Part shown: in pieces, positions 52,053 through 57,813 of the stretch
Layout: each line of letters starts with the position of its first letter
Position numbering within the stretch: the stretch's first letter is position 1
From: an uncultured bacterium
Lineage (GTDB): Bacteria; Bacillota; Clostridia; Lachnospirales; Lachnospiraceae
Assembly (NCBI GenBank): GCA_947651225.1
Contig: CANSYK010000013.1
Location: 1 to 64,000, forward strand
Reading direction: 5' to 3'
DNA length: 64,000 nucleotides
Notes under the pieces: model-generated
The model's database searches: none
Seen by the model: the letters and a program-made list of their open reading frames with translations, nothing else
Told to the model about the DNA's origin: nothing
Position numbers and translations under genes: made by a program

Positions 52053-52826
52053 CTATAAATTGGCAAAATCCAGGAATAAAAGCTTCATCTTCTCTTCACT
52101 GTCTACAAATTCATTTCCATGATTTGTACCAGTATACAAAAGTTTTCCGTCCCTATAGGCAAACAGGGTATTCAAAGGCAGTTCTTCCCACAAGCTCCCA
52201 TCTAACGGCCTTGTGGAAATCACAACTGCCTCCCCCCTGTGGCAACAAAAGAGGCTTTCTTTATAATTGGTATGGACATAAAAAAGTTCTCCATCATAAA
52301 AAATAAGATTTAATTTATTTTCTGGTGATATCTTTGAAATAATCTCATCCATTAAATGAAACCGTTCTTCCTGCGTCAATGCCCTGTTTTTCCGCTCCTG
52401 TTCTACATTCACCCTGCTAATCATATAGCTAAGAATCCTCTCGCTGTCTGTCTCCCCCTCCTGCATATGCACAAAAGGATTCAGTGCATCACATTCAAAA
52501 ATAGTCCCATTATGCGCCAATGTCCAGACACGCTCCTGATTATCCCGCATTACAAAAGGATGGGTGTTTTCGTATTCCAGATTTCCCCTTGTTGCAAGCC
52601 GAATATGTGCAATCATATTGTCTGCTTCAATCTTTGCCTGAAGCCTCTGTTTCAAATAATCACTTTTGCAGGAATTTTCCGGTTGTTTTTCCAAAGACAC
52701 TGCATTTCCATAAAAAAATGCCATCCCCCACCCATGGGGATGTTCCACACCATGCGAAAAGAACTCCCGCAGCAAATCATTTAACAGAAGCTTCTTTTTC
52801 GAACTGACTCCAAACAATTCACACAT
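52053..52826 (-). CDS. Class II glutamine amidotransferase, YafJ/EgtC-like
   Basis: 257 residues of the Ntn-hydrolase GATase_4 family. Cys2 follows the initiator Met (MCELFG) and would be the nucleophile after Met removal. Other conserved parts are GVEHPHGWGMAFFYG, MIAHIRLATRGN, LAHNGTI and TDSERILSYM. No synthase domain is fused, as in EgtC, which hydrolyses a gamma-glutamyl amide in ergothioneine synthesis. It overlaps the upstream glutamate-cysteine ligase-like gene by eight bases and is third in an operon with two such ligases. A role in removing or transferring a gamma-glutamyl group is inferred from this. Confidence 0.85.
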   Translation of the reverse strand: MCELFGVSSKKKLLLNDLLREFFSHGVEHPHGWGMAFFYGNAVSLEKQPENSCKSDYLKQRLQAKIEADNMIAHIRLATRGNLEYENTHPFVMRDNQERVWTLAHNGTIFECDALNPFVHMQEGETDSERILSYMISRVNVEQERKNRALTQEERFHLMDEIISKISPENKLNLIFYDGELFYVHTNYKESLFCCHRGEAVVISTRPLDGSLWEELPLNTLFAYRDGKLLYTGTNHGNEFVDSEEKMKLLFLDFANL

Positions 52827-54096
52827 TTGCTCTTTCCTGCCTTTCCTTTGCTAATTTCAGTGCTTTTTTTACATAGCTGCCCTGAAACTGTTCCCGGATT
52901 TTCCATGCATACCGATTTTGGGCATCTAGAAACTTCTCACATTCAAACGCTAAAACCTCTTCTACCGGAATCCTAAGAGATTGGTAAAATTCTTTCATTG
53001 CCTCAATTATTTTGATTGCTGCACCTGCAACGGAATAATTTTCTCCATCGGAAAGCACAATTCTGACTGTCTTTAAATCATACCGTGCGGCATTTTTAAA
53101 ATTCTGCACTGCCTGTATCTGTTCCTTCCCTTTAAAATGCCAGTCTTTTGAAGCAGCAAGCCATACCATAAGAAGCTGTGCAAAAACAATATCCTTTTCC
53201 TCCACGCCAAACTCCGAAAGGGGATTTAAGTCAAACATCCGCAGTTCAATATGGTTCACCCCATTCTCCCGCAGGGCATCCAGACTGTTTTCTCCCTTCG
53301 GTTTTAAGCGAATCGGATAATATAATTCTGACGCTGCTTTTAACAGTCCACTATCCACATATTTCTGAATGCTGGCAGCATAGGCATCAATATTGGAATA
53401 GTCAAAAACTGGCGCAAACTCATTCCAATATCCTATTTCACTGCATCTGACTGACGCCATGCCAGTAAAAATATCCCTGTCATAAACTCCTTTTTCCACA
53501 AAAGAACTGTCCATAACCGGGCTTGCAGCCGTAATTGCCACAAGAAGCCAGCCGTAAGCCGCCATTTTCTTTGCCAGATTCAGATAAAGATGATTTTTAT
53601 ATTCTGTATAATCCCTTATCTCCTGCAATCTAAAATTTTCTTTTAATAATTCTTCCGAAAAAGAAAAATTCACATGAATTCCAGAAAAAGTCATTTTATA
53701 GCGTCCATATTTATCTGACAAATAATCCCGGTACGCCGTTTTGGACACATTTTCCCCTTCAAAACGTGCAACCGGAATATCCCTTTCATTCTCAATATAA
53801 GGTGGATTGGAAAAAGGCCATAGATATTCTTTTTGGGGAAGGCTCTGCAACTTTTTGTGAATACGGCGGCTGTGGGAGTTAAGTTCCTTTACAGCGGCCT
53901 CTATGCTGTTATGCACTGCCGTGTTAATTTCTGTCTGATTTTCGCAAAAGTCCTTTACAATATGCGCATCCTCAGGAAAAGGATGCAGGGTATGCGCAAA
54001 TTTTCCATTTCCAAGAACCCGCAGACTCTCCATCTCCAATCCAAAATATCCATCCAAAATATGCGTTTTTATCGATTCCTTCTCGATGTGCAGCAT
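52819..54096 (-). CDS. GshA-type glutamate-cysteine ligase-like protein
   Basis: 425 residues from ATG 54096, with GGGAGG upstream; a GTG one codon earlier is possible. It matches the proteobacterial/GshF-N glutamate-cysteine ligase family: GLEMESLRVLGNGKFAHTLH, ENQTEINTAV, NPPYIENERDIPVARF, RYGRYKMTFSGIH-like YGRYKMTFSGIHVNFSF and HIELRMFDLNP. The enzyme would join the gamma-carboxyl of Glu to an amino group, classically Cys, with ATP. It starts on the last base of the upstream GCS2-family gene. No glutathione synthetase is present in the window. Confidence 0.85.
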   Translation of the reverse strand: MLHIEKESIKTHILDGYFGLEMESLRVLGNGKFAHTLHPFPEDAHIVKDFCENQTEINTAVHNSIEAAVKELNSHSRRIHKKLQSLPQKEYLWPFSNPPYIENERDIPVARFEGENVSKTAYRDYLSDKYGRYKMTFSGIHVNFSFSEELLKENFRLQEIRDYTEYKNHLYLNLAKKMAAYGWLLVAITAASPVMDSSFVEKGVYDRDIFTGMASVRCSEIGYWNEFAPVFDYSNIDAYAASIQKYVDSGLLKAASELYYPIRLKPKGENSLDALRENGVNHIELRMFDLNPLSEFGVEEKDIVFAQLLMVWLAASKDWHFKGKEQIQAVQNFKNAARYDLKTVRIVLSDGENYSVAGAAIKIIEAMKEFYQSLRIPVEEVLAFECEKFLDAQNRYAWKIREQFQGSYVKKALKLAKERQERANV

Positions 54097-55280
54097 CACA
54101 ACCTCCCATATTCCTCGATATAATCATCCATACTCTTTCCTGACAAAAGCCCCTCTGCCATTTCTCTTGCAGGACTGAGAAGATTTTCTGCTCTTTGATG
54201 CAAAGACACCAAAAACTTTTCTTCTCCAAACCCTCTTTTGTGCAAGCCTGCTTTTGCAATATCCAGTACATCCATAATAAGAACAGAAACTTTCTTCCAG
54301 TCAAAGGTATCAGGAAGCTCTTTTTTTACAAACATACGCCTAAGCTCGGAAGCATTATACCCTTTATGATAAATCACATGATCATTCTCTAACAGCCCTG
54401 TCAATGCACCAAGATTTTCCATCAGACCGGCATGCAATGCTGCTGATGCCATAATCTCCTTTACCGGCTGCTCACAGACACTGCGAAATTCTACCGTTCC
54501 CTGGAATGTCAAATCTTCAAATTTGAAGGAACGCAAATATTGCAAATCCGACAATTCCGGCTGAATACAAATATTTTGATAACCATTCCCATCAAAATAT
54601 TCTCCAACAATTTCATCCAGTTCAAAATATTCTGCCAGTGATACCGGATGAAAATTAACATATTTTCCTTCCCGTTCCACGCAATACAAACTCATACTCG
54701 CAATATAGCGTATAATTTCATCGGTTGATTCAAACTCCAGACCATACATATCTACATTATGCCTGTTCAGCCCATGAAGGCTGTTCCGCCAAAAACCATC
54801 CCGGCTGCAGAGAATCTCCTGATTTTCTCCCCATGGAGAATTTGCAAAAACCAGCGCCTTAAGTGGCTCTAACTTTGTAAACGTGTTTAACGTTTCTACC
54901 AGACTGCCTTCCTCTACATCCATCTGTATCTGGCTTGCACAGGAAAACAGCCCAAAGTTTGGGTGATTGTGGAATAAAATCTTCCTGCCATACTCTTTAT
55001 AAGAAGAAAGATGATGCAGCAGCATACGGTACCGTTCACTGACTACAGGCACATTATTGTTGACAGCATGACATGGGTTAATCCCCATTCCCGTCAGCGC
55101 ATGGTTATATTTCCCTAAAGACTCCTGTACAAAGCAATAATATGATACGAACCGCTGATACAATATGTTCATATCTAATTCTGTCCCAAAGGAAAACTCC
55201 AATGTATTATAACTGCAGTCAAATGAAATCCCATCTCCCGTCTCCTCATCAATTGCCTCTTCCAATTTTCTATTTTTCAT
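54096..55280 (-). CDS. GCS2-family glutamate-cysteine ligase-like protein
   Basis: 394 residues from ATG 55280 (GAGG upstream). It fits the GCS2 family (EgtA, plant-type and YbdK-like carboxylate-amine ligases): FSFGTELDM, CASQIQMDVEEGSLVETL, ALVFANSPWGE, SRDGFWRNSLHG and GTVEFRSVCEQP. The family forms gamma-glutamyl or related amide bonds with ATP. It is the first gene of a translationally coupled operon with a second, unrelated-family ligase and an EgtC-like amidotransferase. Having both ligase families side by side is unusual. A DUF1858 gene lies 180 bases upstream on the same strand. Confidence 0.82.
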   Translation of the reverse strand: MKNRKLEEAIDEETGDGISFDCSYNTLEFSFGTELDMNILYQRFVSYYCFVQESLGKYNHALTGMGINPCHAVNNNVPVVSERYRMLLHHLSSYKEYGRKILFHNHPNFGLFSCASQIQMDVEEGSLVETLNTFTKLEPLKALVFANSPWGENQEILCSRDGFWRNSLHGLNRHNVDMYGLEFESTDEIIRYIASMSLYCVEREGKYVNFHPVSLAEYFELDEIVGEYFDGNGYQNICIQPELSDLQYLRSFKFEDLTFQGTVEFRSVCEQPVKEIMASAALHAGLMENLGALTGLLENDHVIYHKGYNASELRRMFVKKELPDTFDWKKVSVLIMDVLDIAKAGLHKRGFGEEKFLVSLHQRAENLLSPAREMAEGLLSGKSMDDYIEEYGRL

Positions 55281-55308
55281 TTTTTCCAACCTCTGCATAT
55301 GAGTATAA

Positions 55309-55335
55309 GGAACGATGGCACCCCTTCATCGTTCC
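55309..55335 (-). terminator. Hairpin between DUF1858 gene and the ligase operon
   Basis: GGAACGATG (55309-55317) and CATCGTTCC (55327-55335), perfect 9-bp stem with a 9-base loop. The T tract is weak, so it may be a terminator with partial read-through or a leader structure for the ligase operon. Confidence 0.5.
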
Positions 55336-55461
55336 CGGCAAAATTTTTGCAGCATCTTGCTCCTGCTTATGGAAAGTATATTAACACCATTTACCTACTA
55401 TGTCAATATGTTTATATGTTATACATCCCTTTTTCTTTCACTTCCCAAAACTGCATTCTTT

Positions 55462-55668
55462 CTACTCTACAGAACCATTAATATGCTCGTCCAGCTTGTG
55501 AATTAATTCCTCCAAATCACATTGATGTGTCTGACATGCCTGCTCCAATGTCTCCCTCGGGGACATATGGCAGGATATACAGTGCATTCCCATTTCATTA
55601 AAACACTCCGCCGCAGACGGATGATACTGTAAAATTGCTCCTATTAATGAATATTTTGTAATAACCAT
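55462..55668 (-). CDS. DUF1858 redox-disulfide domain protein
   Basis: 68 residues, the full length of the domain. TKYSLIGAILQYHPSAAECF followed by MGMHCISCHMSPRETLEQAC matches the hybrid-cluster-protein-associated disulfide domain also found at the N-terminus of ScdA/YtfE proteins. The CxxC motif (HCISCH) is expected to switch between dithiol and disulfide or to serve in electron transfer. It is transcribed towards the glutamate-cysteine ligase operon. Divergent from it is a signal-peptidase-like gene. Confidence 0.88.
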   Translation of the reverse strand: MVITKYSLIGAILQYHPSAAECFNEMGMHCISCHMSPRETLEQACQTHQCDLEELIHKLDEHINGSVE

Positions 55669-55716: not shown

Positions 55717-55745
55717 TTGTCATTTTTCCTTGCATATTATATACT
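55717..55745 (+). promoter_or_regulatory. Promoter of the signal-peptidase-like operon
   Basis: TTGTCA (55717-55722), 17-base spacer, TATACT (55740-55745). It places the transcript start near 55752, so the frame beginning at 55717 cannot be the gene start; the ATG at 55783 is favoured. Confidence 0.75.
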
Positions 55746-55782
55746 ATTGGAAATGGAGATACAAGAACGGAGATTTATTAAT

Positions 55783-56259
55783 ATGACGCCAGAAGAAGCA
55801 TCAAAAAAAACGCTGGAACAACTTCTTCCGCTTCTTAAGGAAGGACAGGCTGTTGAAATCCACCCACAGGGAAGCAGTATGTTTCCGCTTTTAACAGAAG
55901 GCAGGGACAGTGTCATGATTCAGGCATTAGATGGTACTGTGCCAAAAAGAGGGGATATTTTACTCTACCAGAGAAGCAGCGGGCTTTTGGTGCTACACCG
56001 GGTTTGCCGTACCCGGAAAGAAGGTTATTATTTTGTCGGGGACAATCAGACAGAAGTGGAAGGACCTTTGGATTTTTCACAGCTTCTTGGCATAGTAACA
56101 CAGATTCGGCGCAAGGGACGACTTTTTTCTGTACAACATCCTGTTTATCAGGCGGTCAGCAGAGCATGGCTTTTTGTGCGCCCAATCCGCCACTTGATCA
56201 GCCGGCCAATTGGGATATTATGGCGTGCCATCCAGAACAAATTACGAAGATTTTTATAG
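55783..56259 (+). CDS. S26B-like (Ser-His) signal-peptidase-family protein
   Basis: 158 residues from ATG 55783, with ACGGAG upstream and a promoter consistent with this start. Ser32 in GSSMFPLL is the expected nucleophile; His72 in VLHRV replaces the Lys of ordinary signal peptidases, as in SipW/eukaryotic-type enzymes; Asp87 in FVGDNQ completes the triad. There is no clear N-terminal membrane anchor; the C-terminus is basic and amphipathic (RPIRHLISRPIGILWRAI). Such S24/S26 proteins occur with NTP_transf_5 and PqqD proteins in putative RiPP loci. The nucleotidyltransferase gene follows 26 bases later. The substrate is unknown. Confidence 0.78.
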   Translation: MTPEEASKKTLEQLLPLLKEGQAVEIHPQGSSMFPLLTEGRDSVMIQALDGTVPKRGDILLYQRSSGLLVLHRVCRTRKEGYYFVGDNQTEVEGPLDFSQLLGIVTQIRRKGRLFSVQHPVYQAVSRAWLFVRPIRHLISRPIGILWRAIQNKLRRFL

Positions 56260-56285
56260 ATATCATTAAAAAATGAGGAAATCAC

Positions 56286-57461
56286 ATGAAACAGGAAGAA
56301 ACACTTTTCTTAAAAATATTAAATGCTTCTCTTCATCCAGAAGATACTGCCCTCTGGCAGTCTTTTGATCCTGCTTTATTGCAGGAACTACAGCCAAAAA
56401 TTTTTACACTTGCCAGAAAGCATAAAATTCTTCCACCAGTATATGAACTGTACTGCTGCAAGGAAATTTCACTGGAACATACTCCTCAGCTTACCTCAGA
56501 AATTTCCACCTATGCACTTTCCTGCTACCAGATGTATGGCTTTACGAATTATGTTTCCAGGCTTTTGGATTCTGCTGAAATTCCCTTTTTCCTTTTAAAA
56601 GGGATCAAGCTTTCCGAGCTTTATCCAAAGCCGGAATTCCGCCGTTTTGGAGATGTGGATATCCTGATTAATGATGACACTCTTTTTGAAAAGGCAAGAC
56701 AGCTCTTGTCAGAAAATGGTTTTCAATCCCAAAAACTTTTAGTAGACCATCACATTGAAATGACCTATGTACGGCCGGAACGAACTTATATTTTAGAACT
56801 GCACCGAAAAGCCATTTCCAGCCAGGACAGCAAAAAGCTGGACACTTCCATTAACAGGTTTTTTGACTCTCTTCCACTAGAACAGCCGCTTTCTCCCGCA
56901 GTGGAAGCATTTTACCTGATTCTTCATATGCTGCAGCATTTGCTAAGCTCCGGCTTTGGCGTTAAACTGCTCTGTGACTGGGTTGTATATCTGGAACACC
57001 ATATAGATAAAATAGATTCCGTACAGCTAAAAACCATCTTAGATGAGCTTGGCCTCTTTACCTTTGCGCATACCATAACAGAACTCTGTGTCCAAAAACT
57101 GGGACTGACTATGGTTCCCGAATGTTTCTGCCAGCCGCTTTCTGACAAAAAACAGAAAATGGCGGTATTGGCAGAAGATATCTTTACCGCAGGCGAATTT
57201 GGAAAAACCGATCCCTCCCGTATGCTGATTTTAAAAAATGGTTCCTCTTTTTCTGACTATTTAAAAGAATTCCATTTCCAGATGAAGCGACGCTATCCGT
57301 CCTTACAGCGTATTGTACCATTATGGCCGGCACTGTGGATTCTGACAGGATTCTATTTTGTTTACAATAACCGCCATTTGCGCCACACAAGTACACACGA
57401 TATTTTACAAAATGCCAAAGCGCGCCAACGCCTGTTAGATAAAATGCGGATTCGTCTCTAA
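56286..57461 (+). CDS. NTP_transf_5 nucleotidyltransferase-family protein
   Basis: 391 residues. The Pol-beta-like core is visible: FFLLKGIKLSELYP, then RRFGDVDILIN with the DxD-type catalytic acids, then HHIEMTYVRPERTYILELH. The C-terminal 180 residues are helical with a hydrophobic segment (PLWPALWILTGFYFVYNNRH). This family is found in lasso-peptide and other RiPP clusters, where related enzymes may nucleotidylate or phosphorylate the peptide. It sits between an S26B-like protease and a PqqD-like protein. GAGGAA lies before ATG 56286. Substrate unknown. Confidence 0.8.
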   Translation: MKQEETLFLKILNASLHPEDTALWQSFDPALLQELQPKIFTLARKHKILPPVYELYCCKEISLEHTPQLTSEISTYALSCYQMYGFTNYVSRLLDSAEIPFFLLKGIKLSELYPKPEFRRFGDVDILINDDTLFEKARQLLSENGFQSQKLLVDHHIEMTYVRPERTYILELHRKAISSQDSKKLDTSINRFFDSLPLEQPLSPAVEAFYLILHMLQHLLSSGFGVKLLCDWVVYLEHHIDKIDSVQLKTILDELGLFTFAHTITELCVQKLGLTMVPECFCQPLSDKKQKMAVLAEDIFTAGEFGKTDPSRMLILKNGSSFSDYLKEFHFQMKRRYPSLQRIVPLWPALWILTGFYFVYNNRHLRHTSTHDILQNAKARQRLLDKMRIRL

Positions 57462-57463
57462 AA

Positions 57464-57490
57464 AAGCGCACCAACTTTGTTGGTGCGCTT
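57464..57490. terminator. Perfect 12-bp hairpin between nucleotidyltransferase and PqqD genes
   Basis: AAGCGCACCAAC (57464-57475), TTT loop, GTTGGTGCGCTT (57479-57490). The T run lies on the minus-strand side, so on the plus strand it may act as an attenuator or processing hairpin rather than a full terminator. Confidence 0.65.
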
Positions 57491-57543
57491 AACGGCTGCT
57501 ACATGACAACGCAACTTCCTATCACACAAGAAAGGTTAAAATT

Positions 57544-57813
57544 ATGCGGGCAAATAATACTTTTACTTTACGCAATATTGGTGATATTTATTTTATTCTT
57601 CCAGCAGACCGGACAGCCTTCCTGTCTACTGACCAGATGCTTACCATCAATGAAACAGGCGCTTATCTCTGGAACTGCCTGCAAAAAAATGTGACATTAG
57701 AAGAACTGGCTTCTGCGTTACAAAATTATTACCAAATCGATTATGAAATGGCGTATGAAGATACCAAAGGATTCCTTGTATCACTACAAAAAATCCATGC
57801 GATAAGCGAGTAA
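57544..57813 (+). CDS. PqqD-family peptide-chaperone-like protein
   Basis: 89 residues, the size of a free-standing PqqD/RRE domain. NIGDIYFILPADRTAFLSTD, LTINETGAYLWNCLQKNVTLEELA and the following helix (DYEMAYEDTKGFLVSLQ) give the winged-helix pattern that binds RiPP leader peptides. AAAGG precedes ATG 57544. No precursor peptide, radical SAM enzyme or cyclase is visible within the window, so its partner is either elsewhere or the module has another use. An overlapping 63-codon frame from 57503 is judged a shadow. Confidence 0.82.
   Translation: MRANNTFTLRNIGDIYFILPADRTAFLSTDQMLTINETGAYLWNCLQKNVTLEELASALQNYYQIDYEMAYEDTKGFLVSLQKIHAISE

Follow-up and report, generated by a model that had tools for sequence, protein, structure and literature searches.

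Why should a bacterium carry, side by side, two different glutamate-cysteine ligases and an amidotransferase that resembles the hydrolase EgtC? The question is raised by a stretch of 64,000 nucleotides (the window: GenBank assembly GCA_947651225.1, contig CANSYK010000013.1, positions 1 to 64,000) from an uncultured member of the Lachnospiraceae. Three of its genes encode a GCS2-like ligase, related to the plant glutamate-cysteine ligase (GCL), a GshA-type ligase and a class II amidotransferase with an N-terminal nucleophile (Ntn) fold, here called GAT. The initial annotation described them as overlapping genes on one strand, and this arrangement is real. We tentatively read the set as a gamma-glutamylcysteine (gamma-Glu-Cys) cycle, in which variable ligases would be combined with a constant EgtC-like gamma-glutamyl hydrolase; in our estimate, this reading falls just short of an even chance. 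The features concerned are the following:

52053..52826, minus strand: GAT, a stand-alone class II (Ntn) amidotransferase/hydrolase, EgtC/YafJ-like, 257 aa, a candidate gamma-glutamyl hydrolase.
52819..54099, minus strand: glutamate-cysteine ligase of the GshA type that lacks an ATP-grasp domain, with a start at ATG 54096 or GTG 54099; the proposed working gamma-Glu-Cys ligase of the window.
54096..55298, minus strand: GCS2-like ligase, resembling plant GCL, which has lost ~65 internal codons in frame and likely starts at ATG 55280; to judge from its sequence, probably inactive as a ligase.
55250..55251 (within a few codons), minus strand: junction of this deletion, located by comparison with L012, L029, L015, L024 and G009.
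55462..55668, minus strand: DUF1858/TIGR03980 protein with a CxxC motif, a neighbour outside the conserved set.

The three-gene cluster is conserved across many gut and rumen Clostridia. A scan of named genomes gave 406 relatives of the GCS2-like gene, and the gene neighbourhoods of the 80 best were compared. These 80 loci are not independent: several are near-identical, and L009, L031 and L088 lie on the very contigs of the first relatives, L006, L005 and L007. GAT lies on the same strand at the same locus in 74/80 and GshA in 60/80, with all three genes together in 59/80; hence, the earlier proposal of a conserved unit is borne out. The orders are GshA-GAT-GCS2 (31 loci), GAT-GCS2-GshA (14) and GCS2-GshA-GAT (14), while partial sets consist of GAT and GCS2 only (15), GCS2 and GshA only (1) or GCS2 alone (5), some of them cut by a contig end. 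The genes overlap or are spaced by at most 60 bases in 45/51 GAT-GCS2, 22/25 GCS2-GshA, 37/40 GshA-GAT and 5/6 GCS2-GAT pairs; the sole GAT-GshA pair, 1454 bases apart, occurs in L027, whose GCS2-like copy was omitted for a stop. When the six classes of arrangement are mapped on a GCS2 tree with 76 rows, 15 changes are required (minimum 5; shuffled mean 41), which indicates repeated rearrangement and trimming of the set. In an Erysipelotrichaceae assembly (L039, 9224-11368), GAT and the GCS2-like ligase form a single open frame of 714 aa, the only such case among the 80 loci. Among 99 genomes, comprising the window's own genome and its relatives, the GCS2-like gene occurs in four, the own genome included.

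The DUF1858 gene had initially been counted in the operon. A tblastn search over 93 loci gave only two matches, with E-values of 0.06 and 0.76; these are not convincing, and the gene was ruled out as a fourth member. No other group of genes near the cluster exceeds 21/80 loci.

Within this module, the ligase is the variable part and GAT the constant part. Of 33 whole genomes, which were picked rather than sampled (20 of them because their locus lacked GshA), 31 have GAT (E ≤ 1e-10) and 21 have GshA (E ≤ 1e-5), two of the latter being of the long GshF type. Eleven of the 33 contain the GCS2-like gene and GAT with no GshA match, a count that is no estimate of frequency and that may include genes missed in draft assemblies. 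A survey of 245 genomes of the order, at E ≤ 1e-20, yielded GshA matches in 35 (22 in frames of at least 759 aa, the size of GshF), GCS2-like matches in 4 and GAT matches in 14. Thirteen stretches were then read; in 10 of them, GAT is present in a genome without a GCS2-like match. GAT overlaps a third, EgtA/plant-like ligase in G130, G284 and G330, and these ligases are 53-58% identical to each other. The representative L092 scores 159.9 bits against the plant-type model TIGR01436 (cut-off 463.15) and 71 bits against EgtA (cut-off 370.8), below both cut-offs; the Pfam GCS2 model gives 52 bits for L092 and 61 bits for L093, and L089 is 56-58% identical to both. In G216 and G189, GAT adjoins an amino-acid importer (substrate-binding protein of the SBP_bac_3 type, permease and ATPase) with no ligase beside it. 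This pairing of GAT with an amino-acid ABC importer, without an adjoining ligase, is seen at L090 (5253-9370) and L094 (816-4886). Among the other stretches, G039 and G184 carry GshA next to MetY or CysK, without GAT; the contig of G295 ends inside or at GAT, and G205 holds a piece of a GCS2-like gene at a contig end. That different ligases are exchanged beside a single unchanging hydrolase suggests that it is the hydrolase which defines the module.

Positions of the active sites were compared in 75 relatives for the GCS2-like protein, 55 for GshA and 72 for GAT, each time together with the window copy; copies that contain a stop, lack a start, are truncated by a contig end or fall below 200 aa were omitted. 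The rows of the smaller alignments (A4, A5 and A6, of 39, 32 and 34 rows) were hand-picked for spread. GAT belongs to the EgtC-like Ntn gamma-glutamyl hydrolases: it shares their fold and the residues assigned as N-terminal cysteine nucleophile and gamma-glutamyl site, and these positions are kept in 73/73 proteins. With 57.3 bits, GAT does not reach the cut-off of the EgtC equivalog TIGR03442 (218.65), and PurF and GlmS also match its fold.

The window's GshA matches PF04262 with 207.5 bits (cut-off 27), which places it in the GshA family; against PRK02471, it scores 285 bits, below the cut-off of 425. Its structural relatives are PDB 3ln7, 3ln6 and 1v4g, the nearest solved structure being GshF (3ln7/3ln6). 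Lined up with 1v4g, 13 site positions, which we take to be catalytic and cysteine-site residues, are invariant in 56/56 GshA proteins, the window included.

The GCS2-like ligases of the cluster have the fold and the G-x-E-x-E and E-x-R motifs of their family. They are divergent, with 18% identity to plant GCL over 418 aligned residues, and a tested full-length member (L006) has no Pfam match at 0.001. The window copy reaches 37.7 bits against TIGR01436, far from the cut-off of 463.15. G27, E29 and E31 of the G-x-E-x-E motif are present in 75/75 aligned relatives, and the window copy alone is without them. Its gene begins normally (AGAGG, 9 bases, ATG 55280), and its N-terminus MKNRKLEEAI is fused in frame to DEETGDGISFDCSYN. 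At the junction, EEAI is followed directly by DEETGDG; ~65 codons are gone and the reading frame is kept. The missing N-terminal piece is absent from the three minus-strand frames upstream to 55721, and no second GCS2-like match was found in the own genome; the copy of the same genus in G009 is intact. This internal deletion, which a short repeat may have mediated, is a new observation. Judged on its residues, the window copy is probably inactive as a ligase. The presence of active-site residues in both ligases, on which the first reading of the operon depended, holds for GshA (13/13 positions) and fails for the window's GCS2-like copy. The lost motif changes what this particular operon can do and leaves the role of the family untouched. 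As the copy lacks its catalytic N-terminal region, GshA would be the only maker of gamma-Glu-Cys there and, from its conserved sites, should supply it alone.

It is doubtful, at well under an even chance, that the deletion is an artefact of assembly, or that the short GCS2-like protein still functions, for example as a partner of GshA. The genome is assembled in 167 contigs, and the nonsynonymous divergence (dN) from L012 of the GCS2-like remainder (0.171) is near that of GshA (0.146) and GAT (0.140), as would suit either possibility. The in-frame junction with a fitting start and ribosome-binding site, and the single GCS2-like match in the genome, argue against them. Dating of the deletion from these rates was dropped because of the saturated synonymous sites and the small difference in dN.

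Other broken copies were found for the GCS2-like gene (L060, L027 and L079), GshA (L034, L100 and L101) and GAT (L101 and L048); they may be real or sequence errors and were not used as proof. In Anaerobutyricum hallii DSM 3353 (L060, 4406-6913), the GCS2-like gene slips out of frame near its C-terminus and into GshA, with GshA and GAT open, so that the gene is either broken or affected by a sequence error. At L048 (5077-5877), the GAT gene is interrupted by an in-frame TGA; this locus and G217 match at the same coordinates and are probably one genome.

The co-occurrence of two ligases might mean that they glutamylate different amines, for example with GshA making gamma-Glu-Cys and the GCS2-like enzyme acting on another amine. 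The retention of both in 59/80 loci and the divergence of the GCS2-like family fit this, as does the fact that no clean GshA and GAT alone were seen outside the window, the other cases (L060, G304 and G290) being damaged or doubtful. Nevertheless, we consider such a division of labour rather unlikely: the third ligase can replace both beside GAT, and the window has lost the GCS2-like motif, yet its GshA and GAT keep all tested site positions. Two amines are not required, given the 11 genomes that have the GCS2-like gene and GAT without GshA and the invariance of the GshA sites.

A gamma-glutamyl or thiol theme, put forward from the window alone, agrees with the surroundings of the cluster in its relatives. 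Sulfur-related groups account for 48/132 genes within 500 bp of the cluster and 21/101 at 500-1500 bp, compared with 5/508 control genes; without the Rrf2, LysR and ThiF groups, the figures are 24/132 near the cluster and 2/508 in the control. The near genes were drawn from the full set of 80 loci and the control from the first 20 kb at most of contigs C2 and C5 in 20 carrier genomes, a non-random choice; moreover, the groups were defined on the same 80 loci, which somewhat favours the near count. Groups were named by eye, and ten were checked on one exemplar each; the MetI, TcyP, TcyA and LarE groups of the sulfur set rest on naming by eye. Exemplars of O-acetylhomoserine/serine (OAH/OAS) sulfhydrylase, cysteine synthase A (CysK), MnmA and the clostridial NifU scaffold exceed their NCBIfam cut-offs; those of MetQ, a SufS-like desulfurase and a TtcA-like protein lie below. 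The Rrf2 exemplar, kin of IscR and CymR, is under the cut-offs of both, and the ThiF exemplar is nearest to TcdA, also below the cut-off. A cysteine T-box was considered and dismissed: the motif scan (up to 2 mismatches) gave eight matches, none directly ahead of the cluster. One of them, in L038, is separated by ~900 bases from a downstream CysK gene, which in turn stands in front of GAT. Rfam returned no riboswitch or other RNA element in seven sources, the window included. Elsewhere in the window (55717-57813, plus strand), genes for a small S26-like peptidase (a weak match), an NTP_transf_5 protein and a PqqD protein stand in a row, possibly a modified-peptide neighbourhood.

The thiol theme also agrees with the rarity of GshF-type glutathione synthetase. 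A GshF-type synthetase domain occurs in only 2/32 genomes (G113 and G114) and not in the own genome; glutathione synthesis by this type of enzyme was thus rejected for most of the carriers tested and for the own genome. The GshB-type model PF02955 matches 8/32 genomes, seven over the cut-off and the own included, with only 23-47 bits, and Bacillus subtilis and four archaea match in the control too. The own match belongs to a tandem pair of ATP-grasp frames (326 and 321 aa; L144, 1726-3675; G000:C69), both RimK-like by eye. Such matches were also seen in G009, G070, G099, G104, G114 and G119, several as pairs. Besides its own GshF, G113 contains a frame of 872 aa whose ATP-grasp region resembles that of GshF (36% identity; G113:C8:29311-30105).

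From the gene set, its conservation, the sulfur context, the kept active-site positions and the missing GshF-type synthetase, we infer the substrates, the direction of flux and a storage role, in the form of a regulated cycle, as follows. A ligase, whether GCS2-like, GshA-type or of the third kind, would use ATP to join the gamma-carboxyl of glutamate to the amino group of cysteine. Because no GshF-type synthetase follows, gamma-Glu-Cys would itself be the end thiol, a less reactive and storable form of cysteine. GAT, as a hydrolase with an N-terminal cysteine, would bind the free gamma-glutamyl group and, on demand for cysteine, hydrolyse gamma-Glu-Cys, or an oxidised or imported form of it, to glutamate and cysteine.

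Several observations weigh against this cycle. To form and break a single bond with the products of one tight operon would be futile unless regulated, and the L039 fusion speaks for activities that work together and not against each other. The 59 loci with both ligases are not accounted for by simple redundancy; the two enzymes may differ in regulation, kinetics or substrates. In the window itself, the cluster has no sulfur gene as a neighbour. Among the stretches read, no clean GshA and GAT pair without a GCS2-like gene was found: in G304, GAT follows GshA, with an in-frame stop in GshA and GAT cut by the contig end, and in G290, both are broken. GAT stands beside neither a ligase nor an importer in G278 and G137 (L091 and L095), and G189, with its importer, carries a GshF gene elsewhere.

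The futile-cycle problem and the fusion leave room for two other roles of GAT. It could be a glutaminase or gamma-glutamyl-transfer partner that feeds the ligase from glutamine, the pair being one synthase. The single frame of L039, the overlap of GAT and ligase genes and the class II domains that feed synthases in PurF and GlmS, matches to the same fold, speak for such a partnership. A dedicated subunit would hardly pair with three ligase types and also stand beside an importer, and known ligases of the glutamate-cysteine ligase fold use free glutamate; we regard this role as quite improbable. Alternatively, as in ergothioneine synthesis, an enzyme encoded elsewhere could build on gamma-Glu-Cys and GAT would deprotect a later product, yielding an unknown cysteine-derived thiol. 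This is unlikely in our view: no constant modifying enzyme lies near the cluster, GAT occurs beside an importer with no adjoining ligase, and EgtD is over the PF10017 cut-off in 0/22 genomes, with two sub-threshold matches of 22.3 and 19.1 bits. The ergothioneine pathway itself was rejected on this last result.

To our knowledge, the small thiol used by many gut Clostridia is not settled, and a conserved ligase-hydrolase pair in the vicinity of cysteine genes offers a direct candidate for their thiol system. It is possible, though we hold it at rather less than even, that the cycle is a widespread unnamed one of gut and rumen Clostridia, in which gamma-Glu-Cys made by one or another of three kinds of ligase, including a divergent one, is re-opened by one conserved Ntn hydrolase, so that cysteine is buffered in the absence of glutathione and ergothioneine. 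No description of this gene set appeared among the open-access literature matches listed, and a search there for the site residues of plant GCL gave no match. An effect on goblet cells of the gut has been reported for gamma-Glu-Cys produced by a gut bacterium (PMC8128206).

Among known systems, the closest in product are haloarchaea, which likely make and recycle gamma-Glu-Cys (PMC7278568), and the gut bacterium Bifidobacterium dentium, which carries gshA and produces it (PMC8128206). Both share GshA and the product with the proposed cycle, but the consulted parts of these reports, which for haloarchaea concern a system with a gamma-Glu-Cys reductase, mention no dedicated hydrolase. The glutathione systems, GshF (GshAB) or GshA with GshB, resemble the cluster in the GshA-type ligase with its 13 site positions kept and differ in the synthetase domain, of the GshF type rare in carriers. 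In the EgtA/EgtC pair, too, a glutamate-cysteine ligase is accompanied by a gamma-glutamyl hydrolase of class II (Ntn) that shares the fold of GAT; its nucleophile and gamma-glutamyl-site positions are kept in GAT. In contrast, GAT is far below the EgtC cut-off, EgtD is lacking above its own, and GshA and the GCS2-like enzyme represent other types of ligase; EgtA is matched by the third ligase (L092) only. The fungal DUG pathway offers a functional parallel to GAT in Dug3, a gamma-glutamyl hydrolase of glutathione. GAT differs in being bacterial and paired with a ligase; both are stand-alone class II amidotransferases, and GAT, too, would release the cysteine of a gamma-glutamyl thiol.

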